Below the pieces are notes generated by a model, which was not told the DNA's origin, searched no databases, and saw only the letters and a program-made list of their open reading frames with translations. This document shows positions 158-47,597 of a stretch of DNA of 64,000 nt, one piece after another (position 1 is the first letter of the stretch; the number at the start of each line of letters is the position of its first letter). The stretch is from Planctomycetota bacterium (lineage in GTDB: Bacteria > Planctomycetota > UBA1135 > GCA-002686595): assembly GCA_016779225.1 (NCBI GenBank), contig JADHNZ010000012.1, positions 1 through 64,000 of the forward strand. Reading direction: 5' to 3'. The translations under genes were made by a program, and so were the position numbers.

Positions 158-1000
158 TCAGCCAAGGTGCTCAAGCAGGTGGCCCACCGTGGCCGCCAGC
201 ACGCGCTCCAGGTCCGGCCCCACTTCGACGAGGGGGTGCGCCGCTCCGAAGGTGTGGCCGGCTCCCTCGAGGAGCAGGGTGCTCGCATTCGGCAGGGCCT
301 CCCCCAGCCGCTCCAGGCTCGAGGGCGTCACGGCCTCGTCATGGGTCCCATGGATCAGGAGCGTGGGCGCCGTGACGCGCCGCGCCGCGGCGACGATGTC
401 GAGCGCCTCGCGGTTCGCCTCCACATCCTCGAGCATGGCTCGCCCCATGCGCATGATCTGACCCGTTCGCAGGTTCGGGATGTCGAGGTGGCCCTCCCGC
501 CTCCAGCGCTCGACGGCGTCATCACCGAAGCGCTCGACCGTGTCGATGGCGGCCCAGGTGACGAGGGCCTGCAGCGGGTGCGCTGCGGCGTGCAGCAGCG
601 CCACGCCACCGCCGCGACTGTGCCCCACCATGCCCACCGCATCCTCCTGGACGGGCCCCAGGCGCCCCTCGAGCACGAACTGGCGCACGCGCTCGACCTC
701 CTCCAGCTGGCGGCTGAAGGTGTCACGCTCGAAGGAGGCCAGGTCGCTGAAGTCGACGAGGTCCTCCCCCACGCCGCTCCCGGCGGTGTTGAAGACCACC
801 GCGAGGAGACCCGTCTCGGCAAGACCCCGCGCGAACAGGGGGAAGAAGCCCCAGTCCATGAAGCCCTTGAAGCCGTGGAGGACGAGGACCGCGGGCAGCG
901 GGCGCTTCTGGGGGCCCCCAGGGCGCAGCGCGCGCCCACGCACGACGCGCGTCGGCTCTTCGGGCCAGGTGAGCTCGAAGGTCTGCTCGTGGATGCTCAT
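158..1000 (-). CDS. alpha/beta hydrolase (serine hydrolase of the dienelactone hydrolase/S9-like type)
   Basis: 280 residues. The fold is shown by an oxyanion-hole segment VLHGFKG (about 40-46), the nucleophile elbow GHSRGGG with Ser128, an acid in IHGTHDEAV (Asp221) and the catalytic His in GAGHTFG (His249). This is the complete Ser-Asp-His triad of the family; there is no signal peptide, so it is probably cytoplasmic. The substrate cannot be told from sequence. The ATG at 998-1000 was chosen because it overlaps the moeA stop as ATGA and removes a 90-residue Pro/Arg-rich extension that is moeA read in another frame. It is the second gene of a moeA-hydrolase unit, so translation is probably coupled. 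Confidence 0.85.
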   Translation of the reverse strand: MSIHEQTFELTWPEEPTRVVRGRALRPGGPQKRPLPAVLVLHGFKGFMDWGFFPLFARGLAETGLLAVVFNTAGSGVGEDLVDFSDLASFERDTFSRQLEEVERVRQFVLEGRLGPVQEDAVGMVGHSRGGGVALLHAAAHPLQALVTWAAIDTVERFGDDAVERWRREGHLDIPNLRTGQIMRMGRAMLEDVEANREALDIVAAARRVTAPTLLIHGTHDEAVTPSSLERLGEALPNASTLLLEGAGHTFGAAHPLVEVGPDLERVLAATVGHLLEHLG

Positions 1001-2199
1001 GCGCGGGGGCTCCGGGGCAAGAGGGCGCGCTCGTCCGCGCCCTGGCCCAGGTAGGGCAAGAAGCGCAGGACGGTGCCGGGGCCCCAGGCGCCGCCAGGCT
1101 CCAGATCCACCAGGCCATCCCCATGGGCCGCGGCGTAGAGGTCGCCACTTCCGTTCCACGCGATCGGATGGAGGCCGCTCGCATCCAGGCGCGCGGGCAG
1201 GAAGAGCCTGCGCTTGCCGCGATGGGCGTGGGCCACCGCCAGGGGTCGCTCGAGCCAGGCCGGCTCCCACCCGCCCAGGAAGCGGCCCACGAGAGGCGCG
1301 AGGAAGAGGTGCGCCGTGGCGAGGACGCTCACGGGATTCCCCGGCAGCCCCATGAGCGCGCGACCGTCGTCGCGCTGGGCGAGGAGCAGAGGCTTGCCGG
1401 GCTGAATGGCCACGCGGTGCAGGAGCTGGCGATAGCCCGCCATGGCCGCCGCGGCGGGGACCAGGTCCTTCTCTCCCATCGAGACGCCGCCCACGGTCAC
1501 GACGATCTCGTTGCGCTCGGCAAGGCCGCGCAGGACGGCCTGCATGCGCTCGGCGTCATCAGGAGCGTGGGCCCGCTCGAAGGGCAGGCCCAGCGCCGTG
1601 GCGAAGGCCGCCAGCAGCGGGCCGTTGGAGTCCTGGATGCCGGCGGGCCCGGCCGCTCCCACCTCGTCCCCGGTCGTGAGGATGCCAAGGCGAGGAGGCT
1701 GCCAGGCCTCGACCGTGCGCGCGCCCGCCATGGCCGCCGCGGCCACGCAGGCGACCGAGAGGCGCGCCCCGGCGAGCAGCACGGCGGCCCCCTCCTGGGC
1801 GTCCTCGCCCCTCCGGGCCACATTGCGGCCGGGCCGGAGCTCCCAGGACGGGTCCACCCGGGCCAGCTCCCCGTCCCGCTCCACGACCTCCACCGGCACC
1901 ACGCCGCAGCCCTCCGGCACGGGGGCGCCGGTCATGATGGCCACGGCCTCGTCCTCGGCCAGCGCGCCCTCGAAGCGCTCGCCGGCCATCACCGAGCCCA
2001 CGACGCAGAAGACCCGCCGCTCACAGGAGCGCACCGCAATGCCGTCCATCGTCGCCCGATCGAAGGGCGGCTGGTCACAGCCAGCCCGCACCTCGCGAGC
2101 GAGCACGGCGCCGAGGGCGTGCTCGATGGGCAGCTCCTCGGTCTGCGCGGGGACCTGCAGACCGCGCAGGAGCGCGAGAGCCTCGTCGTAGGTCAGCAT
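997..2199 (-). CDS. moeA: MoeA, molybdopterin molybdotransferase
   Basis: 400 residues, the usual MoeA length. It inserts molybdate into adenylated molybdopterin, the last step of molybdenum cofactor synthesis. Diagnostic motifs are present in order: DRATMDGIAVR near residue 47, an 'SNGPLLAAF' motif, GGVSMGEKD, and the C-terminal QPGKPLL...GLPGNPVSV. Start is ATG 2197-2199, where family homology begins (MLTYDEAL). Upstream reading only gives low-complexity Gly/Pro/Arg sequence. A TACCCT hexamer lies 9 bases before the ATG. The 202-base gap to the divergent icd gene must hold both promoters. No other molybdenum cofactor genes are in the window. Confidence 0.95.
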   Translation of the reverse strand: MLTYDEALALLRGLQVPAQTEELPIEHALGAVLAREVRAGCDQPPFDRATMDGIAVRSCERRVFCVVGSVMAGERFEGALAEDEAVAIMTGAPVPEGCGVVPVEVVERDGELARVDPSWELRPGRNVARRGEDAQEGAAVLLAGARLSVACVAAAAMAGARTVEAWQPPRLGILTTGDEVGAAGPAGIQDSNGPLLAAFATALGLPFERAHAPDDAERMQAVLRGLAERNEIVVTVGGVSMGEKDLVPAAAAMAGYRQLLHRVAIQPGKPLLLAQRDDGRALMGLPGNPVSVLATAHLFLAPLVGRFLGGWEPAWLERPLAVAHAHRGKRRLFLPARLDASGLHPIAWNGSGDLYAAAHGDGLVDLEPGGAWGPGTVLRFLPYLGQGADERALLPRSPRA

Positions 2200-2401
2200 G
2201 ACCAGGTGAGGGTACCGCGCCCGCACGCCCCGGCTGGCTCTCCGCCGGCCCCGTGGCGGCCCCACGATCCACCCGCAACCGCCCCGCAACCCGCTCGTCC
2301 CAGGGAGGGCGGGGGAGGCGGCGGCCCCCCAGGGCGAGCGCGGCGGTAGGTTATTCGGCCCCGCGCTCCCCGACCGCATCCCCCGAGCGCCCCACGACGC
2401 C

Positions 2402-4621
<2,220 letters not shown>

Positions 4622-4628
4622 TCGGGTC

Positions 4629-4656
4629 GCGGCCCAGCCCGCTGGCGCTGGGCCGC
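4629..4656 (+). terminator. GC hairpin after icd, terminator-like
   Basis: A perfect 10-base-pair stem (GCGGCCCAGC / GCTGGGCCGC) with an 8-base loop starts 8 bases after the icd stop. No T-tract follows, so it is either a Rho-assisted terminator or a 3'-end stabiliser rather than a classical intrinsic terminator. Confidence 0.5.
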
Positions 4657-4817
4657 GCAGGCCCGAGCTCTCTCGGTCGGACTCCCCGGAGGGCTCTCGC
4701 GAACTCGAGCGAGGCGCCCCTCGGGGTGGGGAGGCTGAGGTCAGGGCAGGAGAGCAGCCACGAGCCCGCAACCGGGGAGAGGTCTGTTCGTCCCGGGTGG
4801 GTGGGGGTGGCGGTGGT

Positions 4818-5717
4818 CTACCTCGGCTCCTCTTCGCCGAACATCCCCTGCTGACCCTGCACGCGCGTCAGCGGCTCGAGGTGTGGGAACGCCTCGACCA
4901 GGGTGGCCGGGGCGGCCACGGGCTTGCGCCCGCCCAGGAGCCACTTCAGCTCGAGGGCGTTGGCGACGGCCTGCCCCTCGAAGTGATTGTTCGTGACCAC
5001 CCAGGTCTGGTCGACCTCGCGCGCGAGAGCGTCCGCCCTCTCGGCCAGCTCCCCGACCTCTGGGGGTGAGTACAGGTAGTCGTAGCGCGCATCGCGCCCG
5101 ACGCCGGGCTGGAACCAGGTGGAGTGGTTGCGCCCGTGGAGGCGCAGGTAGCCGATGGGACCCGTCGGCCGGAAGCGCACGGGCGGGTGGGCCCAGGAGC
5201 TGGGAAGGTCCACATGGGCCACCGAGTAGCCGAGCCCGCCGACGCTCTTCAGCTGGGGCGGCTCGAACCACGAGCGATGGCGCACCTCGAGCACCAGCGG
5301 CAGGGGATCGAGGAGGCTCTGGATGTGGCCGAGGCGGCGGACCTCGTCAGGGCCCGCATGGAAGGTGGCTGGAAACTGCACCAACACGCCGCAGAGCAGC
5401 CGCCGGCGCACGAGCGGGACGAGGGCCTCGTGGAGCGCGCGGGCCTCGTCCTCCCAAGCCGGGAGATCGACGGGCCCGTGGGTGAAGCGCTGGCTCGCCT
5501 TGACGGTGAAGCGGAAGTCAGGAACGCCCTGCACGGCCTCGACCCAGCGAGCCACCACCTGGGAGCGCGTGCGCGCATAGAAGGTCGCGTTGACCTCCAC
5601 GCCGTCGAGGATCTGGGCCAGGAGGGCCAGCGGATGCACCCCACGGGGCAGCGGCTGCGGATGCACGCGTCCCGCCCAGTCGGGATAGGACCAGCCTGCC
5701 GTGGCGACTCGGATCAC
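4818..5717 (-). CDS. DUF72 (YecE-like) family protein
   Basis: 299 residues with the DUF72 TIM-barrel pattern: 'VATAGWSYPDWAG' at the N terminus, 'NATFYARTRSQVVARW', 'FRFTVKASQRFTH', 'LVLEVRHRSWF', 'YLRLHGRN' and 'TWVVTNNHFEGQAVANALEL'. The family is widespread; its biochemical role is not settled. The start is GTG 5715-5717, chosen because homology begins there and because it overlaps the stop of the upstream acyltransferase as GTGA. It is the last gene of the leftward unit 8203-4818. Confidence 0.9.
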   Translation of the reverse strand: MIRVATAGWSYPDWAGRVHPQPLPRGVHPLALLAQILDGVEVNATFYARTRSQVVARWVEAVQGVPDFRFTVKASQRFTHGPVDLPAWEDEARALHEALVPLVRRRLLCGVLVQFPATFHAGPDEVRRLGHIQSLLDPLPLVLEVRHRSWFEPPQLKSVGGLGYSVAHVDLPSSWAHPPVRFRPTGPIGYLRLHGRNHSTWFQPGVGRDARYDYLYSPPEVGELAERADALAREVDQTWVVTNNHFEGQAVANALELKWLLGGRKPVAAPATLVEAFPHLEPLTRVQGQQGMFGEEEPR

Positions 5718-6442
5718 ACCTCGGGCTCCGCTCCCGCGCGCCGCGCGGCCTCGCGCTCGGCCGCAAGCAGGGCCTCGCGGATCCCCGCCGTCCGGGACCG
5801 CACCTCCTCCTCCGAGATCCGGCGCGGCACCAAGATCGGGGCCCCCATGTGTGCGTGAACGCGGGCAAAGGGCTTGGGCACGGTGAAGCGATCCCAGGAG
5901 GGCATGCGCCAAGCCCGCTCCACATGGATCCCTACGGGAACGACGGGGTGGCCAGTCATGTGGGCCAGGAACGCCACGCCGTCGGTGATCGAGTGGATCG
6001 GCCCGCGCGGGCCGTCGGGAGTGATCGCAATGGTCATTCCGCCGCGGAGCGTGCGGATCATCTCCTTCATGGCACGGGATCCCCCCCGGCTGGAGGAGCC
6101 CACGATGATCGGGTAGCCCAGCTTGCGCAGGACCGCCATCGAGAGCTCTCCGTCCTTGGACGGTGAGACGAGGACGGCCGAGGGCAGGCCCTTCATGGCG
6201 CGCAGCACGGGGAAGGCCCGGCCATGCCAGAACACCAGGAGGCCGGGGTTCCCCGAGTTGAAGTCCAGGGTGCTCGGATCGTCCGCGGAGAGGACCCGCC
6301 GCCAGGTGAACGACAGGAAGCGGAAGATCGCGCCCCCGGCAAGGGCCACGATCGGCTTCAGCAGGCGCCGCCGCGCCCGACGCACTCGGGCGGTCGTGCG
6401 GTGCTTGCGCTCCCTGGGAGGCTCACCCCCGATCCTGGCCAT
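5714..6442 (-). CDS. DUF374 lysophospholipid acyltransferase-like protein
   Basis: 242 residues. Motifs of the DUF374 branch of the LPLAT/LpxL-like acyltransferases: 'FWHGRAF', 'SPSKDGEL', 'GSSSRGGSRAMKEM' and 'TPDGPRGP'. The N terminus is strongly basic and is followed by a hydrophobic stretch (about 32-47), consistent with association to the inner face of the membrane. In some bacteria DUF374 proteins act in lipid A or membrane lipid acylation; this is family-level inference. It lies 6 bases after the large exported-protein gene and overlaps the DUF72 gene by 4 bases. Confidence 0.85.
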   Translation of the reverse strand: MARIGGEPPRERKHRTTARVRRARRRLLKPIVALAGGAIFRFLSFTWRRVLSADDPSTLDFNSGNPGLLVFWHGRAFPVLRAMKGLPSAVLVSPSKDGELSMAVLRKLGYPIIVGSSSRGGSRAMKEMIRTLRGGMTIAITPDGPRGPIHSITDGVAFLAHMTGHPVVPVGIHVERAWRMPSWDRFTVPKPFARVHAHMGAPILVPRRISEEEVRSRTAGIREALLAAEREAARRAGAEPEV

Positions 6443-37642: not shown

Positions 37643-38641
37643 ATGACCGAAGGTGACTCCAGCGCCTCCCGCCTGGCCCAGGCCCTGGAGGTGATCCGCA
37701 TCGAGGCGACCGCTCTCGACCTGCTCAGCAAGCGCCTGCGGGGCGGCGGTATGGAGGGCTTCGACGCGGTCGTGGACGCGGCGCTCGCCTGCACCGGCCA
37801 GCTGGTCATCACGGGCATGGGGAAGGCGGGCCTCGTGGGCTCCAAGATCTCGGCAACCCTGGCCTCGACGGGGACCCCGAGCTTCTACCTCCACCCCGGG
37901 GAGGCCCTCCACGGCGACCTGGGGCGGCTGCGCGAGGGCGACCTCCTGCTCGCCCTCTCCAACTCGGGCGAGACCGAGGAGGTCAATGCCGCGGTCCCGG
38001 CAGCGCGCAGGCTCGGCGTGCAGGTCTTCGCGATGACCGGCCGCCCCGAGTCCACCCTCGGCAGGCTGGCCGATGCGGTCCTCGACATCGGGCGCGTCGA
38101 GGAGGCCTGCCCCATGCGGCTCGCGCCCACCGCCTCGACCACGGCCATGCTCGTCCTCGGGGATGCCCTGGCCATGGTGATCCTGTCCGAGCGCGGCTTC
38201 GAGCGCAGCGACTACGCGCGCTTCCACCCCGCTGGCGCCCTGGGGCGCCGTCTGATGACCGTGGCCGAGGTCATGCGCAAGGGAGACGAGCTGCCGGTGG
38301 TTGCCGCGGGCGGGTCCGTCCTGGATGTGCTCCGTGCGACCAGCGAGACCCCTGGCCGGCCAGGTGCCGCCCTTGTGGTGGGGGCGGATGGGCGCCTGCA
38401 GGGGATCTTCACCGACGGCGACCTGCGCCGCCTCATCGACCAGACCGGGGGAGCCGCCCTGAGCGAGCCGGTTGACCAGCACATGGCTCGCGACCCCAAG
38501 GCCCTCCAGCCGGGCCAGCTGGCCGAGGAGGCCATGCGCCTCCTCGGGGAGCACCGCATCGACCAGGCTCCCGTCCTCGACGCCGACGGCCGCCCGGTGG
38601 GCCTCGTGGATGTGCAGGACCTGCTCGACCTGGGGCTCTGA
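37643..38641 (+). CDS. kdsD: D-arabinose 5-phosphate isomerase (KpsF/GutQ family)
   Basis: 332 residues: SIS sugar-isomerase domain followed by two CBS domains. It converts ribulose 5-phosphate to arabinose 5-phosphate, the first step to KDO. Motifs: 'VITGMGKAGLVGSKISATLA', 'PSFYLHPGEALHGDLG', 'LSNSGETEEV' and the CBS halves near 210-330 ('RLQGIFTDGDLRRLI', 'RPVGLVDVQDLLDLGL'). It heads an operon with kdsC and the giant LPS-export gene, which links it to lipopolysaccharide core synthesis. Confidence 0.95.
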   Translation: MTEGDSSASRLAQALEVIRIEATALDLLSKRLRGGGMEGFDAVVDAALACTGQLVITGMGKAGLVGSKISATLASTGTPSFYLHPGEALHGDLGRLREGDLLLALSNSGETEEVNAAVPAARRLGVQVFAMTGRPESTLGRLADAVLDIGRVEEACPMRLAPTASTTAMLVLGDALAMVILSERGFERSDYARFHPAGALGRRLMTVAEVMRKGDELPVVAAGGSVLDVLRATSETPGRPGAALVVGADGRLQGIFTDGDLRRLIDQTGGAALSEPVDQHMARDPKALQPGQLAEEAMRLLGEHRIDQAPVLDADGRPVGLVDVQDLLDLGL

Positions 38642-38656
38642 GCCTCTCCCACCTCG

Positions 38657-39190
38657 ATGCTGTCCCCCCAGGAGCTCCGTGAACGCCTCGGCCTCGTGCG
38701 CCTCGTTGCGCTCGATGTGGACGGGACCCTCACCGACGGCGGCGTGCGCTACGCAGGGGACGAGGAGCTCGTCCGCTTCTGCGTGCGTGACGGGCAGGGG
38801 CTCGTGTGGCTGCGGCGCGAGCTGGGGATCCACCTGGCCTGGATCACCGGGCGCGGCTGCCCGGCGGTCGAGCGCCGGGCGCGAGAGCTTGGGGTGGAGC
38901 ACCTTGTGATGAGGCCCGCATGCAAGCGCACCGCTCTGGCTGAGGTGCAGGCGGCTCTCGGGGTCACGCCCGAACAGACCCTCGCGATGGGGGACGACCT
39001 CCCGGACCTCGGCCTCGCGGCGCGGGCTTCGCTCCTCTGTGCCCCCGCGGATGCCCGCCGGGAGGTGCGTGAGCGCGCTGATCTGGTGACCCGCGCTCAC
39101 GCTGGAGACGGCGCGGTCCGCGAGGTCGCTGAGGTCCTCCTGGAGGCCCAGGGGGCCTGGACTCGCCTGCTCGAGCAGTGGTCCGAATGA
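38657..39190 (+). CDS. kdsC: 3-deoxy-D-manno-octulosonate 8-phosphate phosphatase
   Basis: 177 residues, C0-type HAD phosphatase without cap domain. HAD motif I is DVDGTLTDG, motif II is the Thr in ITGRG, motif III Lys in 'ACKRTALAEV', motif IV in MGDDLPDL. It removes phosphate from KDO-8-P to give KDO. The pair with kdsD and the following LPS-export gene makes this assignment firm. The stop overlaps the next start as ATGA. Confidence 0.94.
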   Translation: MLSPQELRERLGLVRLVALDVDGTLTDGGVRYAGDEELVRFCVRDGQGLVWLRRELGIHLAWITGRGCPAVERRARELGVEHLVMRPACKRTALAEVQAALGVTPEQTLAMGDDLPDLGLAARASLLCAPADARREVRERADLVTRAHAGDGAVREVAEVLLEAQGAWTRLLEQWSE

Positions 39191-42100
39191 AGCGCCTCGC
39201 CGCCTTCCTCCTCCTCTTCAGCTGCGGCGTTGCCCTGCTCGTCCTGCTCGACGGGTCGAGTGGTCCGCCGCAGCGCAGGCCCGTTGCGTCGACGCCGGAG
39301 GCCGAGCCCGTCGAGGTCGAGGACCCGGCTCCGGTGACACAGCGCGTGGAGGTGCGCGGCCGGACCCTCCTCGAGTTCTTCGACCTCGAGTCCGGACACC
39401 TGCGCCGCCGGCTGGAGGCCGAGGACCTGCAGCCCGTGGGGGACGACACACGCACGCCGTATCGCGCGCGGACGGTGGTCCTGGAGGAGTTCGAGCAGGG
39501 CGAGGAGGTCGCGCTGCGCACCGTTCGCGCGGGCGGCGCCGACTTCACCCTGGACCTCTCGGGAGGTCTTGCCGCGCCGGAGCTGGCAGAGCGGGGGCGC
39601 GTGGCCTTCGAGACGGTCGAGCTCGTTCAGTCGCGCGGGCTGCCCCAGGCGCCGGTCACGATCCGCTCGCCAGAGGTCCTCGCGGAGCTCGAGCGGGGCG
39701 TCTACTCGGCGCCACCCGAGGTCCAGGTGCAGGTCGAGGGCGAGGGGCTCAGCGCCGAGGGCAGGGGCCTGCTCTTCGAGGCGGCGCGCTCCACGATCGA
39801 GTTCCCCGCGGGCGGGACGGTGGACCTTGTTCAGGGTGGGACCCGCCGAGGGGTGCTCTCCACCGCCGAGGGGGCTGCCCTGGTCCTCGCTCGACAGGAC
39901 GACCAGGGTGGGGAGGCCTTTGGCATCCGCACCCTCGGGCCGTCGGTCCTCGCGGTCGAGGGCGAGCTCCCGCTGCAGGTGGATGCCGAGCGGTTCACCG
40001 TCGAGACGCGCGCCGTGGAGGGTGAGGTCGAGATCGAGCGCGTGCGCGCCTTCGGGGCGCTGACCGTCTCGCGCGGAGAGGACCGCTTCAGCGGTCGTGA
40101 CGCGACCATCACCTTCGATGCGGAGGGGGGCTCGCGCCTCGTGATCGAGGCCGATGCGGTGGCCACGGTCAGCGTGCAGGGCCCGGGAGGACAGCGACGC
40201 CCGCTCACCTTCCGCGGGGCAGAGGGCATGGTCCTCCGCGATGGTCCCCAGGGGCTGTTCCTGCGCATGGCTGGACCGTTCTCGGTGACGGACGCCACGG
40301 GCGCGCAGCTCGATGTGGACGGGGTGGGCGAAGGCCGGATTGATTCGGCGCGCACGGAGCTCGTGATGCGCCTCGATGGAGGCACTCGATTCCGCAGCGG
40401 CGAGACCGAGCTCGCCATGGGCAGTGCCGTGCTGCGCCACGAGGCGGGGGATCTCCAGCTGCTCCAGCTGGAGGGGTCCTCGGGCGTCGAGGCGCGCGCA
40501 CGCGCTGCGGACGGAGACTTCGTTGAGCTGACTGCCGAGGCGTGGAGCCTCGAGCTTCGGGGTGACCAGCCCCGCATTCTCTGGGCAGACGCCGTCAGCG
40601 TCCGCTCGCTCGAGGGGACCGGCCGCACGCTCTCCGCTGGCCGGATCGAGGACTTCCGCTGGGATGTCCGCTCCTTCCTGGCGCTCAGGGGCGTCCAGTG
40701 GGTGCTGCCCGAGGGGTCGGGCCGCGGCGAGCGCCTCGTGGCGCGCGGTGACGGCCTCGAGGTGGTCGGACGCGCGGACGAGCGCGCGAGCCTGCGCTAC
40801 GCCGTCATCGACTCGAGCGCCACGGACTCGGGCGCCTCGATCGAGCTCGAGGCCGTGCGCATTGATGTCACGCGCACCACCGTCGAGGCCTGGGGCGAAG
40901 TGCGCGTGGACGCCTCGGGTCCTCAGGGGGTCTCGGGCATGCTGGCCGAGCATGTGCGCATCGACCGTCGGCCTGCCGACGAGGAGGGCGGCTCGATCCA
41001 GGTCCTCGCGGAGCGCGTCCGTGAGGGCGTGCTCCAGCGGGAGGGGCGCTCCCTCGCGCTCGAGGCCGAGCTGCTCGAGGCCACCCTCGAGGGCGCGGAT
41101 CTTGCAGCGGGCCCGTTCCGCGCCTCGGGCGCCGTGCGCGCCCTCGCCTCCGAGCGGACGGCCCTGCGGCTCGAGGCGGACGCGCTCGAGCGGGACGCGG
41201 CGGGGGTTGCGCGGGCGGTCGCTCTCCCCGGCCGCCGCATCCGCGCCGAGGGCCTCCTGCCCGGGGGCAGCCAGGAGCCCTTTCGGCTGGAGGCGGACTC
41301 CCTCGAGCTTGGACCTGAGAGGCTCGTGGCGACGAGGGTTCGGGTCGAGCTGGGCGTTGCGCTGGTCCCCATGGGGGCAGCCGCTCGACCCGCAGCGGCG
41401 CCTCGCCCCTCGGTCCTCATGGCCGAGAGCCTCACCATTGCTCCCAGTGAGACGGTGTTCGCGGGGGCCGTCCTGGCGGAGACCTTCGACCTCGACGGCG
41501 TCCCCGTGCGGCTCGAGGCCGACAGGCTTCGGCTCGCCCATGACGACCTGCGTGCCGTCGAGAGTCCGAGTGCCGAGGCCGTGTCCGCGCTCGAGGCCGA
41601 GGGGGCGGTGCGCGTGCGGTACGGCGAGGGCGCCACGATCCAGGCCTCCGCCCTGCGGATGGACCGCGAGCGCGCTCAGCTGACGGGGACGCCGCTCGTG
41701 CTGACCTCTCTTGGGTACGAGCTGCAGACCGAGCTGCTCGAGCTGGACCTGACCGACTATCTGCTCGAGATCGGGCCGAGCCGCGTGACGCGCGGACCTG
41801 GCTGGGAGCTGCGCTTTGCGGGCGTCCTGCCCCACCGCATGGGCGGGGACCTGATGCAGTCCATGCATGGCATCACCCTCGAGGCTGGGGACCAGACCGC
41901 GCGCGCCAACCACGGGTCCTTCTGGCTGCACCCGGGGCGCTGGCGTCGGAGTGCTCACGAGGCGCTCTGGGGGCGGACCCTGGACCTCGAGCTGCCACTC
42001 GAGCCGGGCCCCGGACCCGCGCCGGACCTGTTCGAGTCGGGCCTCGTGAACAACTCCTTCCAGCGCCTCGCGCGGGGGGAGCTGGCCCAGTACCTGCGCG

Positions 42101-44145
42101 CCGCGCACTTCCAGGGCGCGATCGAGGTGGACCGCCAGGGCGAGCGGAGCGCGCGCGCCGAGGAGGTCTATCTGGATGTGGAGCACCGTCGTGGCTGGCT
42201 GAGCGGCGCCGAGCTCGCCTTCCAGATCCCGGTGCGCGGAAAGGAGGAGCGCATCCGCGCCTTCGCAGAGCGACTGGACTCTCTTCCAAACGGCGGGCTC
42301 GTTGCCGCAGAGGCCGCCCTCACGACCTGCTCGTTCGAGGAGCCGCACTTCGTCGTGCAGAGCAAGGACCTCCGGCTCGAGCCCCGCGAGGACGGGCGCT
42401 GGCGCTTCGGCGTGCGGGGCAACCGGCTGGTGTTTCCTCTCGGCGTCTCCCTCCCGCTCCCCGGAATCGGGGATGTCGTGCTCGACCAGAAGGGGGGCTT
42501 CGAGGGCATCGAGGATGACGAGGGGCAGGTCCGCACGATCCAGAACATCTTCCTCTCGAGCACGGCCCGCTTCGGCACGGCCCTTGGGACCGAGGGAACC
42601 ACCGATGTGGGGTCCGTGGGGCTGGGCCTCGCGGAGGCGCTTGGGTTCGATGAAGAGCAGGTGCGTGGACGCTGGCGGTACGAGGGGGCTTGGCTCGGCT
42701 CGCGAGGGCCGCTCCTCGGCCTTGGGCTCCAGCTGCGCGAGCGGCGGCCGGAAGCGGACACCGAGGATGCGTGGCTCGACCTCTGGCTGCGCGGGATCCC
42801 GGACCAGGGGGAGGACCGTGGCCTGATCCGAGTCCCACCGAACGAGCGGGACGGCCTGCGCAGCTGGATCAATGTGCGCGGGCGCTATCCCTTCGACGAC
42901 GAACAGTGGATCGACCTCGCCTGGACTCGGCAGAGCGACCCCGGCGTCCAGTCGGAGTTCTTCGAGTCCGAGTACCTGGCCTACGAGCAGCGCGACTCGT
43001 ACCTGCACTGGCGCAAGGCGCGCGGCGACGAGTACTTCCAGGCGAACCTCTCCATCCAGAGCGACCCGTGGCGGACGACCCTCCTGGAGCAGCCCTCGCT
43101 CGGGTACTCGAATGGCTCCAGCGCGCTCACCGAGTTCCTGGGCGTCCCCCTCCTCTATGCGGCCTCTACGGACGCCGCGCGGCTGCGACGGGCGGGAAGC
43201 GGAGACCCGAGCCTGTTCGAGCAGCCGTGGCTGGACTTCGATGGCCTCGCGGATGCGTTCGGCGAGGCGGAGGTCACGCGCCTGGACACCTGGCAGGAGC
43301 TCGCGGCGCCGGTTCAGCTTGGTGAGACGGGGGCGACCCTGGTGCCCAGCGTGGAGCTTCGGGCCTCGGCCTGGGACCGCTCACGCGGGAACGCCGGGGC
43401 CATCCAGCGCGCGGGCGCGGAGGCCGGGGTCGAGCTGGGCGGGTCGTGGTCGCGCCTCGGCAGCGGGACCGTCACCCTGCTATCCCCTTATGCGCGCGTC
43501 TCGCGGTCGCTCTGGACCGAGGAGGATGCTGGCGAGGTGGTGCGGTTCGACCAGGTGGAGGATCCCCTCGGCGGGGATCGGGTGGATGCCGGGCTGCGCA
43601 TGCGCTGGCGGCGTCCCTCGAGGCAGGACCAATTCGACCTCGAGCTCGGCGTGGGCCAGCACACCGACCGCGCCCTCGAGGCCCCCGATCAGGAGTCCTG
43701 GCGCGCGCTGGCCCGGCTCCAGACCACGGTCTCGGGGATCCCCACGGGCCTGCTCCTGGATGGTCGCTACGCCCTCGACGGCGGACCTACTGCCTACAGC
43801 TCCACGACCTACGCGGTTCGCCCCACGAGGGCGCTCGAGCTGCAGGTGGGCCACAGCCGCGCGGACGACGCGCTCGGAACCGCGGCCCTCTACGAGGCCA
43901 TCACCTACCGCGGGCGGATCACCCTCAACTCCAAGTGGGAGGTCGATCTGCTGAGCCAGGAGAACCTCCTCGGAGAGGGCGCCCTGCGCTCCGAGGCCGT
44001 CCTCCGGCGCCTGGGTCATGACTTCGTCTTCGAGCTGTCGGTGAACCACCGCGCGGGCGAGGGCAGCGGCATCAGCGTCAACTTCGCGCCCCTCATCGGC
44101 TGGCGCCGACCGCGCGTCTCGATCCTGCCGGTGCTGCAGCCTTGA
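39187..44145 (+). CDS. lptD: Giant LPS-export protein: apparent LptC-LptA-LptD fusion
   Basis: 1652 residues from ATG 39187. One N-terminal hydrophobic segment (about 4-22) has no clear cleavage site and looks like an LptC-type inner-membrane anchor; a Pro/Glu linker follows. Residues ~50 to ~900 are long runs of short beta-strands with repeated 'LEA--L' and 'AEGRGL--EAARSTIEF' type text, as in LptC/LptA/OstA jellyroll units. From about 990 the text is LptD-like ('RRGWLSGAELAF', 'AALTTCSFEEPHF' with Cys1048, 'NRLVFPLGVSLPLPGI'), followed by a ~550-residue region of alternating Trp/Tyr/Arg strands that fits an outer-membrane barrel. LptD inserts LPS in the outer membrane. No separate lptA or lptC gene is next to it. 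Confidence 0.8.
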   Translation: MKRLAAFLLLFSCGVALLVLLDGSSGPPQRRPVASTPEAEPVEVEDPAPVTQRVEVRGRTLLEFFDLESGHLRRRLEAEDLQPVGDDTRTPYRARTVVLEEFEQGEEVALRTVRAGGADFTLDLSGGLAAPELAERGRVAFETVELVQSRGLPQAPVTIRSPEVLAELERGVYSAPPEVQVQVEGEGLSAEGRGLLFEAARSTIEFPAGGTVDLVQGGTRRGVLSTAEGAALVLARQDDQGGEAFGIRTLGPSVLAVEGELPLQVDAERFTVETRAVEGEVEIERVRAFGALTVSRGEDRFSGRDATITFDAEGGSRLVIEADAVATVSVQGPGGQRRPLTFRGAEGMVLRDGPQGLFLRMAGPFSVTDATGAQLDVDGVGEGRIDSARTELVMRLDGGTRFRSGETELAMGSAVLRHEAGDLQLLQLEGSSGVEARARAADGDFVELTAEAWSLELRGDQPRILWADAVSVRSLEGTGRTLSAGRIEDFRWDVRSFLALRGVQWVLPEGSGRGERLVARGDGLEVVGRADERASLRYAVIDSSATDSGASIELEAVRIDVTRTTVEAWGEVRVDASGPQGVSGMLAEHVRIDRRPADEEGGSIQVLAERVREGVLQREGRSLALEAELLEATLEGADLAAGPFRASGAVRALASERTALRLEADALERDAAGVARAVALPGRRIRAEGLLPGGSQEPFRLEADSLELGPERLVATRVRVELGVALVPMGAAARPAAAPRPSVLMAESLTIAPSETVFAGAVLAETFDLDGVPVRLEADRLRLAHDDLRAVESPSAEAVSALEAEGAVRVRYGEGATIQASALRMDRERAQLTGTPLVLTSLGYELQTELLELDLTDYLLEIGPSRVTRGPGWELRFAGVLPHRMGGDLMQSMHGITLEAGDQTARANHGSFWLHPGRWRRSAHEALWGRTLDLELPLEPGPGPAPDLFESGLVNNSFQRLARGELAQYLRAAHFQGAIEVDRQGERSARAEEVYLDVEHRRGWLSGAELAFQIPVRGKEERIRAFAERLDSLPNGGLVAAEAALTTCSFEEPHFVVQSKDLRLEPREDGRWRFGVRGNRLVFPLGVSLPLPGIGDVVLDQKGGFEGIEDDEGQVRTIQNIFLSSTARFGTALGTEGTTDVGSVGLGLAEALGFDEEQVRGRWRYEGAWLGSRGPLLGLGLQLRERRPEADTEDAWLDLWLRGIPDQGEDRGLIRVPPNERDGLRSWINVRGRYPFDDEQWIDLAWTRQSDPGVQSEFFESEYLAYEQRDSYLHWRKARGDEYFQANLSIQSDPWRTTLLEQPSLGYSNGSSALTEFLGVPLLYAASTDAARLRRAGSGDPSLFEQPWLDFDGLADAFGEAEVTRLDTWQELAAPVQLGETGATLVPSVELRASAWDRSRGNAGAIQRAGAEAGVELGGSWSRLGSGTVTLLSPYARVSRSLWTEEDAGEVVRFDQVEDPLGGDRVDAGLRMRWRRPSRQDQFDLELGVGQHTDRALEAPDQESWRALARLQTTVSGIPTGLLLDGRYALDGGPTAYSSTTYAVRPTRALELQVGHSRADDALGTAALYEAITYRGRITLNSKWEVDLLSQENLLGEGALRSEAVLRRLGHDFVFELSVNHRAGEGSGISVNFAPLIGWRRPRVSILPVLQP

Positions 44146-44199: not shown

Positions 44200-46980
44200 T
44201 CAGGGTGCGGTGATCGTCCAGGTCGTGCCCTTCGGTCCAGCGAGGCGCACGAGGCCCTCGTCCGCCGCCTCGGTGGCCGGGCCCTCGAGGGTCCAGCTCG
44301 GGTCCACCTGGAGCAGGGCCTCCGCAGCTCCCAGTGCGGTCAGGCGGGCGCGCTGCACGCGGCCCTTGCGCCACTCCACATCCACCGCGAAGCCGCCTCG
44401 CGCGCGCAAGCCCTTAACCGAGCCCTCGGGCCAGCCCGTGGGCAGGGCTGGCAGGAGGCGGATCCGGCCGTTGCCAGACTGCAGCAGCATCTCTGCGACC
44501 CCGGCCGTCGCGCCGAAGTTGCCATCGATCTGGAAGGGCGGATGCAGGTCGAAGAGGTTCGGGGCCATCGAGCGCTGCATCAGGTACTGCAGGTGCCTGC
44601 GCGCGGCGTCCCCGTCCTCGAGGCGCGCCAGCATGTTGATCAGCCAGGCCCGGCTCCAGCCGGTGCCCCCGCCGCCGTGGGCGAGGCGCTTCTCGATCGT
44701 CATGCGCGCCGCGTGCGCAAGCTGACGGTCGCGCGCCACATCGAGGGCGTGGCCGGGATGCAGCGCGTAGAGGTGGCTCATGTGGCGATGCCCCGGCTCG
44801 GGCTCCAGGTGCGGTCGGTCCCACTCCTGGATGCGGCCGTCCTCCATCAGGACCAGGCCCGGAGCCAGCTGGGCGCGCTTCTCCCGCACCTCGGCGAGGA
44901 AGGCGTCCTCCTCGCGACCCAGGACCCGAGCAGCCTCGAGCACATGGTCGAGCAGCTCGGCCACGAGCTGCTGGTCCATCGCGGGCCCCATGGCGGTCGC
45001 CGCCTGGGTGCCGTCGGGCAGCCGGTAGGAGTTCTCGGGGCTGGTGGAGGGACCGCTGACCAGTCCGCGCCCCTCGACCTCGACCAGGAAGTCGAGCTGG
45101 AAGCGCGCGCAGCCCGCCAGCAGGGGCCAGGCCACCTCGGCGAGGAAGCGCTCGTCCCGCGTGAAGCGCCAGTGCTCCATCAGGTGCGCCGTGAGCCAGG
45201 TGCCGCCCTGGTGCCAGAAGCCCCAGAACGGCTGTACCGAGCGCGTCCACGCCGCCGCCCACAGGTCGGTCGCATGGGGCGCGACCCAGCCGCGCATGCC
45301 GAAGGACTCGCGGGCGCGGACGGCCCCGCGCTCCGCGAGGCGCCCGAGGAAGTCGAACAGCGGCAGGTGGCACTCGGGCAGGCCGGTCACCTCGGCCGGC
45401 CAGTAGTTCATCTGCAGGTTGATGTTGAGGTGGTAGTCCGCGTTCCACGGCGCCGCGAGGTGGTGGTTCCACAGGCCCTGGAGGTTCGCGGGATGCGTGC
45501 CGGCCCGCGAGCTCCCCATGAGCAGGTAGCGTCCGAACTGGAAGACCAGGGCCTCCAGGGCGGGATCGCTCTCCCCCCCCCGGATGCGCGCAAGGCGCTC
45601 GTCAGTGGGGAGTGCCGGGCTCTCGCCCAGGTCGAGCACCACGCGGTCGAACAGGGCGCGGTGATCGTCCGCATGGCGCTGCCGCAGCATGGCACCCGCG
45701 TGCTGGCGCGCGCCTGCAAGGTCCTCGACCGCGCGCTCGGGGTCCGCTCCCCCGAAGCCTGTGCGCGCCGTGAGCACGAGGACGAGCTCGCGCTCACCCG
45801 TGGCGTGCAGGCCGTCCTGGTCGGCACGCGCCCGCACGCCCTCGCCCTGCGCCTCGAGGAGCGCGAGATAGGGCGTCCCCAGCTCGCCGTTCCCCAGCGG
45901 GGCGTTCTTCTGGGTGGCCACCCCCTCCATGCGCAGCAGCCCGGTAGCAAGGGGCGTGACGCTCGGACCGGGCATGCCCTCCTCGACCGGACGCGAGAGT
46001 TGCGCGTGAACCTCGAGCAGGCCGGGCTCGGAGGCCGTCAGGCGCACCACCAGCGCCTGGTCCGGCGCACTCATGAAGACCTCGCGGGTGAACTCCACCG
46101 ACCCCACGCGCCAGCGCACGAGGCTGATCCCGGTCTCGAGGTCGAGGGTGCGCGCGTAGTCCTCGAGGTTTCCGTCGGGGAGCACCTGGCGCAGCTTCAG
46201 GTCGCCCAGGGTCTGGTGGCTGCGCGTGACGGAGCCCGCGGAGAAGGCTGGCATGGCCATCGCGTCCGCCTCAGCGGGCTTGCCTGCGAGCAGCAGCTCG
46301 CGCATGCGGTCGAGCTCCTCGCGCGAGCCCTTGTTGAGGCGCGGCTCGGGGCCGCCGGGCCAGAGCGAGTCCTCGTTCAGCTGGATGTGCTCCCACTCCG
46401 GGTCCCCGTGCACCATCCCGCCGAGGCGGCCATTGCCCAGGGGCAGCGCCTCGAGCCATTGACTCGCGGGCTGGCGGTACCAGAGCGTGTTCCGTCCGCC
46501 GGGGGCCTGCTCGCTCGAGGCCAGCCTCCGGAAGGGTCCCTCCATCCCGACCTCCAGGCCGTCCCCTCCGCCGGAGTCGTGGTACTCGAGCCGGAAGGAG
46601 TGCTTGCCGGGATCGAGGTCGATCGCTCCGTCCTTGCGGACCATGCCGTGCGGCCCACCGTTCTCCACCACGAGGGCCCCGTCGACGAAGAGCCGCGAGC
46701 CGTCATCGCTGATGGTGTGGAAGCGATACTCGCCCGGCCTCTCGATGGCGAGGTCCCCCTCGAACACGAGGGCGAAGTCGTCGACCTGCGTGCGGAACGA
46801 GATGACGATGTGGTCCGTCTCGCCGCTTGCCTTGGGCTCGAGGGTCGAGAAGTCCGGGATGTCCGGCCAGTCGCCTGCATAGGCCTCCCAGCGGATCGGC
46901 CCTGCGAAGGGGAGGTCCCCTGCGATGGCGAGACCCGGGGCGGCGAGGGCGGTCAGGAGGAGCGGGAGGAGGCGCATCAC
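44200..46980 (-). CDS. GH95 alpha-L-fucosidase with N-terminal PA14-like domain
   Basis: 926 residues with a signal peptide (about 1-20). Residues ~60-150 carry a PA14-like carbohydrate-binding fold ('[20 protein letters not shown]'). The GH95 part begins near 165: '[20 protein letters not shown]', '[11 protein letters not shown]', '[14 protein letters not shown]', a catalytic-acid-like Glu in STSPENSY at about 648, '[13 protein letters not shown]' and '[16 protein letters not shown]'. GH95 enzymes release fucose (some are galactosidases). Start GTG 46980 or ATG 46977; the GTG follows a TAGGCT hexamer by exactly 6 bases. The fucose-degrading role would fit a marine planctomycete that eats algal polysaccharides. 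Confidence 0.92.
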
Positions 46981-47054
46981 GGGTCGAGCCTAGCGCGGTC
47001 TGCGACGGCCGTCTCGGACCCGCGGGCGCTCAGGCCCCCGCTACAATGCCCGCC
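46981..47054. promoter_or_regulatory. Divergent promoter pair between GH95 and tatA-like gene
   Basis: Minus strand: TAGGCT at 46987-46992, six bases before the GH95 GTG. Plus strand: TACAAT at 47042-47047, seven bases before GTG 47055 of the TatA-like gene. Both spacings place the expected transcription start at or next to the first base of the start codon, so both mRNAs may be leaderless. No strong -35 on either side. Confidence 0.5.
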
Positions 47055-47597
47055 GTGCTGGGTCTGATCGGCAACCTGTCCCTCCCGGAGCTGCTCGTGG
47101 TGGCTGCGGGGGCCGTCCTGATCTTCGGGAGGCGCCTCCCCGAGGTCGCGATGCGGGGGGCCGCGCAGTTCATGCGGCTGCGCAGGAACCTCACCCAGGC
47201 CTGGCGCGACGCGGGCATCGAGGACGAGCTGCGGCGCGTGCGCTGGGACCTGGACCGCGAGGCGCGCGAGGTCGCGCGGTTCGACCAGCTGTCCAGCCCG
47301 GCGCCCGTGCCCTCGGTTCCGGACTACACCCTCGCCCCGGTCGACCCCGTGGAGCCGCTCGAGCGCGAGGCCCTCGACCACGAGCCGGGCATCGAGGGCG
47401 GCCTCGATCACGAGTCGTCGGAGGCGGACGAGGCCGAGGTTGGCTGGGCCGACGACCTGTCAGTGGGACCGAGTGAGGAGGAGCTGCGTGCCGAGCGCGG
47501 CAAGGACGAGCCCGGGCACTTCGAGCCACCGGCCGACCCGGACCCAGAGGGTGGCGCCCCGATCGAAGACTCCCCGGCCGATCCGGAGCACCCATGA
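47046..47597 (+). CDS. tatA: TatA/TatB-like twin-arginine translocase protein with acidic tail
   Basis: 183 residues. The N terminus has the TatA/B layout: a short hydrophobic helix 'SLPELLVVAAGAVLIFGRRLP' (given here as SLPELLVVAAGAVLIFGR), the FGRRLPE hinge and an amphipathic helix, followed by a long Glu/Asp/Pro-rich tail. TatA/B form the pore/receptor for folded proteins with RR signals, such as the DUF1501 protein at 56781. Start ATG 47046 lies inside the TACAAT hexamer; GTG 47055, three codons later, is probably the true start. The stop overlaps the next gene as ATGA. tatC is not in the window. Confidence 0.85.
   Translation: MPAVLGLIGNLSLPELLVVAAGAVLIFGRRLPEVAMRGAAQFMRLRRNLTQAWRDAGIEDELRRVRWDLDREAREVARFDQLSSPAPVPSVPDYTLAPVDPVEPLEREALDHEPGIEGGLDHESSEADEAEVGWADDLSVGPSEEELRAERGKDEPGHFEPPADPDPEGGAPIEDSPADPEHP

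Follow-up and report, generated by a model that had tools for sequence, protein, structure and literature searches.

A gene of a Planctomycetota bacterium probably encodes, in one chain of 1652 residues, a natural single-chain form of LptC, LptA and LptD, and this is the best explanation of the evidence taken as a whole. It lies in the window, by which is meant the whole stretch of 64,000 nucleotides that was analysed, and comes from an assembly of 3.2 Mb in 99 contigs that is 77% complete. The reading draws on LptC profiles, predicted folds, gene order, split relatives and the lack of any separate lptC or lptA gene in the searches described below, and it upholds the earlier note on this DNA, which had proposed an LptC-like anchor, LptA-like jellyrolls and an LptD barrel in one protein. 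The features on which that proposal was built, namely one uninterrupted frame, a single N-terminal hydrophobic segment, a repetitive beta-strand middle followed by a barrel-like C-terminal part, and Cys1048, were all recovered, the middle and C-terminal parts in AlphaFold models. A signal-peptidase site was sought at the N-terminus and separate lptA and lptC genes in the genome and its relatives, and none was found; the same fusion is present in 20 genera of the family. Coordinates and the evidence for each feature are collected in Table 1.

Table 1. Features of the fused gene and its upstream neighbours (window positions, strand, residues of the encoded protein, and basis of assignment)
Feature	Position	Strand	Residues	Basis
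kdsD, arabinose-5-phosphate isomerase (SIS and CBS domains)	37643..38641	+		Pfam SIS 5.5e-25, CBS 1.6e-16
kdsC, HAD-type Kdo-8-phosphate phosphatase	38657..39190	+		Pfam HAD hydrolases 5.7e-09 and 4.8e-07; operon position
Fused lptC-lptA-lptD-like gene	39187..44145	+	1-1652	Single frame; full-length homologous frames in 20 genera of the family
ATGA overlap with kdsC stop codon (translational coupling)	39187..39190	+		Sequence; 4-base kdsC-lptC overlap also annotated in E. coli MG1655
N-terminal membrane anchor, signal-anchor type, without AxA cleavage site	39190..39252	+	2-22	Helix 2-19 in model; consensus MKR..hF.hhFG.G..hL common to fused and split-upstream proteins
Flexible low-confidence linker	39253..39357	+	23-57	pLDDT <50 for 21-26 and 30-50
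LptC-like domain	39358..39837	+	58-217	hhalign; Pfam LptC in homologues; PDB LptC fold matches
LptA-like continuous beta-jellyroll	39838..41772	+	218-862	Continuous strands, pLDDT mostly 80-95; PDB LptA/LptH fold matches
Junction of former upstream protein and former LptD	41770..41805	+	862-873	Alignment to split homologues and other fusions; confident beta structure predicted
LptD N-terminal periplasmic domain (limits approximate)	41782..42312	+	866-1042	Homology to N-terminal part of stand-alone LptD in split relatives
Disordered loop within this domain, possible protease-sensitive site	41968..42039	+	928-951	pLDDT <50 for 932-952
Cys1048, conserved T-x-C motif, sole cysteine outside anchor	42328..42330	+	1048	Sequence; cysteine in 43 of 46 aligned homologues
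LptD-type outer-membrane beta-barrel, about 26 strands	42352..44142	+	1056-1652	Foldseek to LptD; model

Gene context

The gene order leading into the fused gene is kdsD, kdsC and then the fused gene itself, whose 1652 codons are read without interruption. Both kds genes lie directly upstream, as had been claimed, but the ATGA coupling ascribed to the whole series holds only for kdsC and the fused gene, where the start codon of the latter overlaps the stop of the former; kdsD and kdsC are 15 bases apart.

Further downstream, a TatA-like single-helix protein is encoded at window positions 47046-47597 (+ strand; weak Pfam TatA match, E 0.018), and in the family and the order many members have a TatA-like gene directly 3' of lptD. 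In the window, a large gene on the opposite strand (44200-46980, -), which we take for a putative glycoside hydrolase of family 95, separates the lptD part from the TatA-like gene. It looks like a local insertion, since in two congeners (L067 and L068) the TatA-like gene follows at a distance of at most about 30 bases.

The N-terminal anchor

Hydropathy analysis gave one peak, at the N-terminus (mean 2.78, against a mid-chain maximum of 1.34), corresponding to an anchor of about 20 hydrophobic residues. The N-termini of fused proteins and of the upstream proteins of split relatives have a common plan, with MKR followed by some 18 hydrophobic residues and then a charged residue, and no AxA after the core. 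A signal-peptidase-like motif was seen in one of 60 such anchor-type N-termini as against 13 of the 19 N-termini of split LptD proteins (Fisher p 1.3e-9, a descriptive value because the motif was chosen post hoc on these sequences and the rows are related). At sequence level the segment has the character of the single, uncleaved membrane helix of LptC (helix 2-19, no signal-peptidase motif), and its retention in the inner membrane is predicted. A lipobox at Cys13 was considered and rejected, this cysteine not being conserved among relatives.

LptC-like and LptA-like parts

On its own, the window protein gave no match above cut-off in Pfam and NCBIfam scans, PF06835 (LptC) included, and searches of PDB sequences with the protein or with profiles returned no convincing match. 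Among its fused homologues, 12 of 45 matched PF06835 (best 2.6e-6). Comparisons by hhalign with the single E. coli sequences of LptC, LptA and LptD were not significant; significance was reached for LptC alone, after switching to a small LptC alignment that includes the E. coli protein, against which the family alignment as query matched at residues 62-217 (probability 90.7, E 1.2e-6). The LptA/OstA profiles PF03968 and PF13100 had no match above cut-off in the bacterium's own genome and 60 related genomes; the assignment of the LptA-like part is thus based on predicted fold and on position. Of the profile searches suggested by the earlier note, that for LptC thus succeeded by way of the homologues and the family alignment, while that for LptA, and any search with the window protein alone, did not.

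The AlphaFold model of residues 1-1060 (mean pLDDT 84.7, pTM 0.52) has a helix at 2-19, low confidence to about residue 57 and strands from there through 914. About 63 short beta strands fall within residues 58-914, and their predicted arrangement is that of the LptA/OstA beta-jellyroll. The best PDB fold matches of this model were to LptD, followed by LptC and LptA/LptH. For LptC these were 6mit_C (E 4.5e-4) and 3my2 (E 0.033, TM-score 0.78 on the target, rmsd 2.1); for LptA/LptH, TM-scores on the target were 0.64-0.71 at probability 1.00 and weak E values of 0.01-0.08, the tool giving no position on the query. Taken together, the LptA and LptC matches had TM-scores of 0.62-0.79 on their targets. 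Counting about 69 predicted strands before the barrel and two per 4.8 A step, the groove can be estimated very roughly at 16 nm, which is about the length of LptC, two to three LptA and the LptD domain.

LptD part

Residues 700-1652 were modelled with a pLDDT of 81.0 and a pTM of 0.55, and the model matched full-length LptD in Foldseek (best E 3.1e-23; TM-score about 0.65 to LptD core structures). It has the architecture of LptD, an N-terminal periplasmic domain followed by a barrel of about 26 strands. The LptD profile PF04453 matched five of 45 homologues weakly (best E 0.0026) and not the window protein. The only cysteines of the latter are residue 13, in the anchor, and 1048, and intramolecular disulfides of the E. 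coli type are accordingly missing; this does not exclude membership of the LptD family, because these disulfides are a feature of the E. coli protein and not of all LptD. Cys1048 is conserved despite there being no second cysteine outside the anchor of the window protein.

Other Lpt and lipopolysaccharide genes

The genome also carries LptB (E 2.2e-102), and LptF and LptG lie side by side on contig C45. No separate LptA or LptC gene was found with PF03968, PF06835 and PF13100 in the 77%-complete genome and 60 relatives: across these 61 genomes Pfam LptC gave 11 matches, six of them over the cut-off, and all were on the fused protein or its split upstream homologue. More weight attaches to a search with the family's own profile, because the Pfam profiles also miss the jellyrolls of the fused protein. 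It found the fused gene alone in the own genome and, in the other family members searched, the fused or split locus plus three weak matches in two genomes. LpxC is present in 59 of the 61 genomes, including all 28 of high quality. It was not found in the own incomplete assembly, a gap that probably reflects incompleteness since the relatives carry the gene.

Distribution and origin of the fusion

The family, most of it uncultured, was sampled with 37 genomes, the own included. A fused frame of at least 1600 codons is present in 24, five have the split form (G020, G021, G022, G027, G036), five run into contig ends or are fragmentary (G003, G024, G026, G031, G035) and three have no match (G006, G023, G029). 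The 24 fused genomes represent 20 genera, with full-length frames of about 1600-2000 codons; identity to the window protein is 45% within its own genus and about 29-43% over matched parts in 19 further genera. That relatives across 20 genera keep the full length marks the frame as more than a chance ORF in GC-rich DNA. Scanning genome contigs with the single protein returned nothing, and with an alignment 64 loci. In a sample of 149 genomes from the phylum, frames of more than 1600 codons were confined to the family among the matches listed, others reaching about 1190. Elsewhere among planctomycetes, Pfam LptC matches sit mostly in frames some 500-1200 codons long; long proteins containing LptC therefore occur widely across the phylum.

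The split form consists of an anchored protein, roughly 800-1200 residues long, and after it LptD in a different frame; the ends of the two frames often overlap. The separate LptD begins with its own signal peptide, and the pair occupies the operon place of the fused gene, the typical order being kdsD, kdsC, anchored protein, LptD and TatA-like gene. This form was seen in other families of the order and at eleven loci of the own family, whose split members include the closed Planctomycetota genomes Pla86 and Pla163 (the latter presumably Rohdeia mirabilis). One of the eleven, the GC-rich locus L093, is split and mimics a fusion: its LptD frame (525-6123) stays open by chance across most of the upstream frame (331-3694), a trap for automatic fusion calls.

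Since the order usually has neighbouring genes for an anchored jellyroll protein and LptD, what is new is that LptD has been joined on, and the fused gene is the evolutionary product of a fusion between two neighbouring genes. The covalent link is not indispensable, because the same family holds split members. Trees built from the LptD part imply two or three changes between the fused and the split state, and a single fusion origin was not rejected (AU test p 0.111, 37 rows). The junction of the window protein is compact. Other fused proteins, of a clade including L111, L119, L126, L130 and L136, have by comparison long inserts here, partly of low complexity and ranging up to linkers rich in glycine, serine and proline, which suggests a second fusion event in that clade.

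Hydropathy revealed no hydrophobic segment at the junction of the window protein, nor is there an internal signal peptide, so the LptD part could not be exported alone. Across the homologues, 852 to 1158 residues precede the junction (coefficient of variation 7.2%) and the LptD part has 742 to 846 (2.1%), two rows cut by contig ends being omitted from these statistics. The bridge had been expected to be of fixed length: the single chain stands, but the variation across genera means that its length is set per lineage.

Proposed mechanism and alternatives

The fusion probably arose from two adjacent, translationally coupled genes through loss of a stop codon and of the LptD signal peptide. It would need no new topology, because the N-to-C order of LptC, LptA and LptD is that of the E. 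coli bridge, as is the head-to-tail direction. The N-terminus would enter the inner membrane and stay there as an uncleaved signal anchor, placing the LptC part beside LptF and LptG, and the LptC-like domain would take lipopolysaccharide from LptB2FG, for which the genome has the LptB, LptF and LptG genes. The lipid could then slide along one continuous jellyroll groove to the LptD N-terminal domain and leave through the LptD barrel. The barrel would be inserted by the Bam machinery while the N-terminus is still in the inner membrane.

That the long frame is an artefact, whether a chance frame in GC-rich DNA or a misassembly joining two genes, is scarcely credible: L093 illustrates how such a frame can stay open across an upstream gene, but in independent genomes from 20 genera the fused frame recurs, homologous along its length. 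The cargo is presumably lipopolysaccharide. Other lipids do have carriers among groove proteins of this general type, and the gap for LpxC in the own assembly would fit another lipid or glycolipid; given LpxC in nearly all the genomes searched and the Kdo genes kdsD and kdsC in the same operon, this is very unlikely. Nor is it at all likely that the hydrophobic segment is a cleaved signal peptide, leaving an LptD with a very long periplasmic arm that docks unanchored on LptF and LptG. Export requires a Sec signal, for which the N-terminal segment is the only candidate, and E. coli LptC without its membrane helix still binds LptB2FG (PMC9972910), yet the segment follows the signal-anchor consensus, has no properly placed AxA site, and is of a type in which the motif so frequent in split LptD is almost never seen.

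A covalent bridge joining both membranes is likely, because fused forms keep only the uncleaved type of anchor, and the chain may well stay intact. It might instead be translated whole and then cleaved in the periplasm, by a protease acting at the junction or in the loop at 928-951, to yield an ordinary two-part machine. The low confidence of residues 932-952, the flexible-looking junction inserts of one fused clade and the fact that split relatives manage without a covalent link all speak for such a cut. Against it, the model places the junction of the window protein confidently in beta structure, no conserved cleavage motif was seen, and the loop was not made by the fusion, since a stand-alone split LptD (L037) has one at the same place; we regard cleavage as unlikely. 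The balance tips modestly towards a permanently covalent bridge that is held in both membranes as one intact polypeptide, cannot operate by a soluble shuttle, is put together with no disulfide checkpoint on LptD, and may double as a tie or spacer between the membranes whose length evolves with the lineage.

The number of LptA units per periplasmic bridge in E. coli has been stated to be unknown (PMC8727689). If the present reading is true, a natural one-chain version fixes the composition of one bridge and excludes a free shuttle in its host, and raises the question of how a barrel is inserted when the N-terminus is already fixed in the inner membrane. Since the family holds fused and split forms, relatives with and without the covalent link can be compared for its effect. 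The planctomycete Lpt system has been described as largely reduced (PMC8871954), a picture that may reflect the merging of LptC and LptA in long, diverged proteins mostly missed by standard profiles.

Comparison with known systems

The closest reference is the E. coli Lpt bridge (LptB2FG, LptC, LptA and LptD-LptE), with which the fused protein shares predicted folds, order of parts and head-to-tail direction (PMC8727689, PMC9972910); in E. coli, LptC, LptA and LptD follow one another in the assembled bridge in a C-to-N configuration (PMC8727689). The gene order of E. coli MG1655, kdsD, kdsC, lptC, lptA and lptB, is paralleled in the window by kdsD, kdsC and the fused gene, with the same four-base overlap after kdsC. 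In E. coli, however, LptC, LptA and LptD are separate proteins, and LptD maturation needs a disulfide-bond checkpoint, whereas the planctomycete protein is one chain with one cysteine outside the anchor. The two-gene planctomycete form (Pla86, Pla163 and other families) is alike in operon place, anchor type and homologous parts, and differs in that LptD is separate and has its own signal peptide. DUF3769 (PF12600), which we take to be the LptD of cyanobacteria, matches the window protein weakly at residues 1021-1094 (E 0.05) and seven of 45 homologues (best 2.4e-4); the match spans the start of the profile only, and implies no anchor or LptC part.

No description of a natural LptC/LptA/LptD fusion was found in the open-access literature, subscription papers lying outside the scope of the search. 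What is new here is LptD fused onto an anchored LptC/LptA-like protein, a variant of the Lpt system. The transenvelope MlaD of Veillonella parvula is a close conceptual precedent, being likewise a single polypeptide that carries an inner-membrane anchor and an outer-membrane barrel and is proposed to form a lipid bridge (PMC10665443). It belongs to an unrelated family, consists of MCE and helical parts instead of jellyrolls, has 419 residues and handles phospholipids, and its barrel is reported to be absent from the MlaD of the PVC group (PMC10665443).
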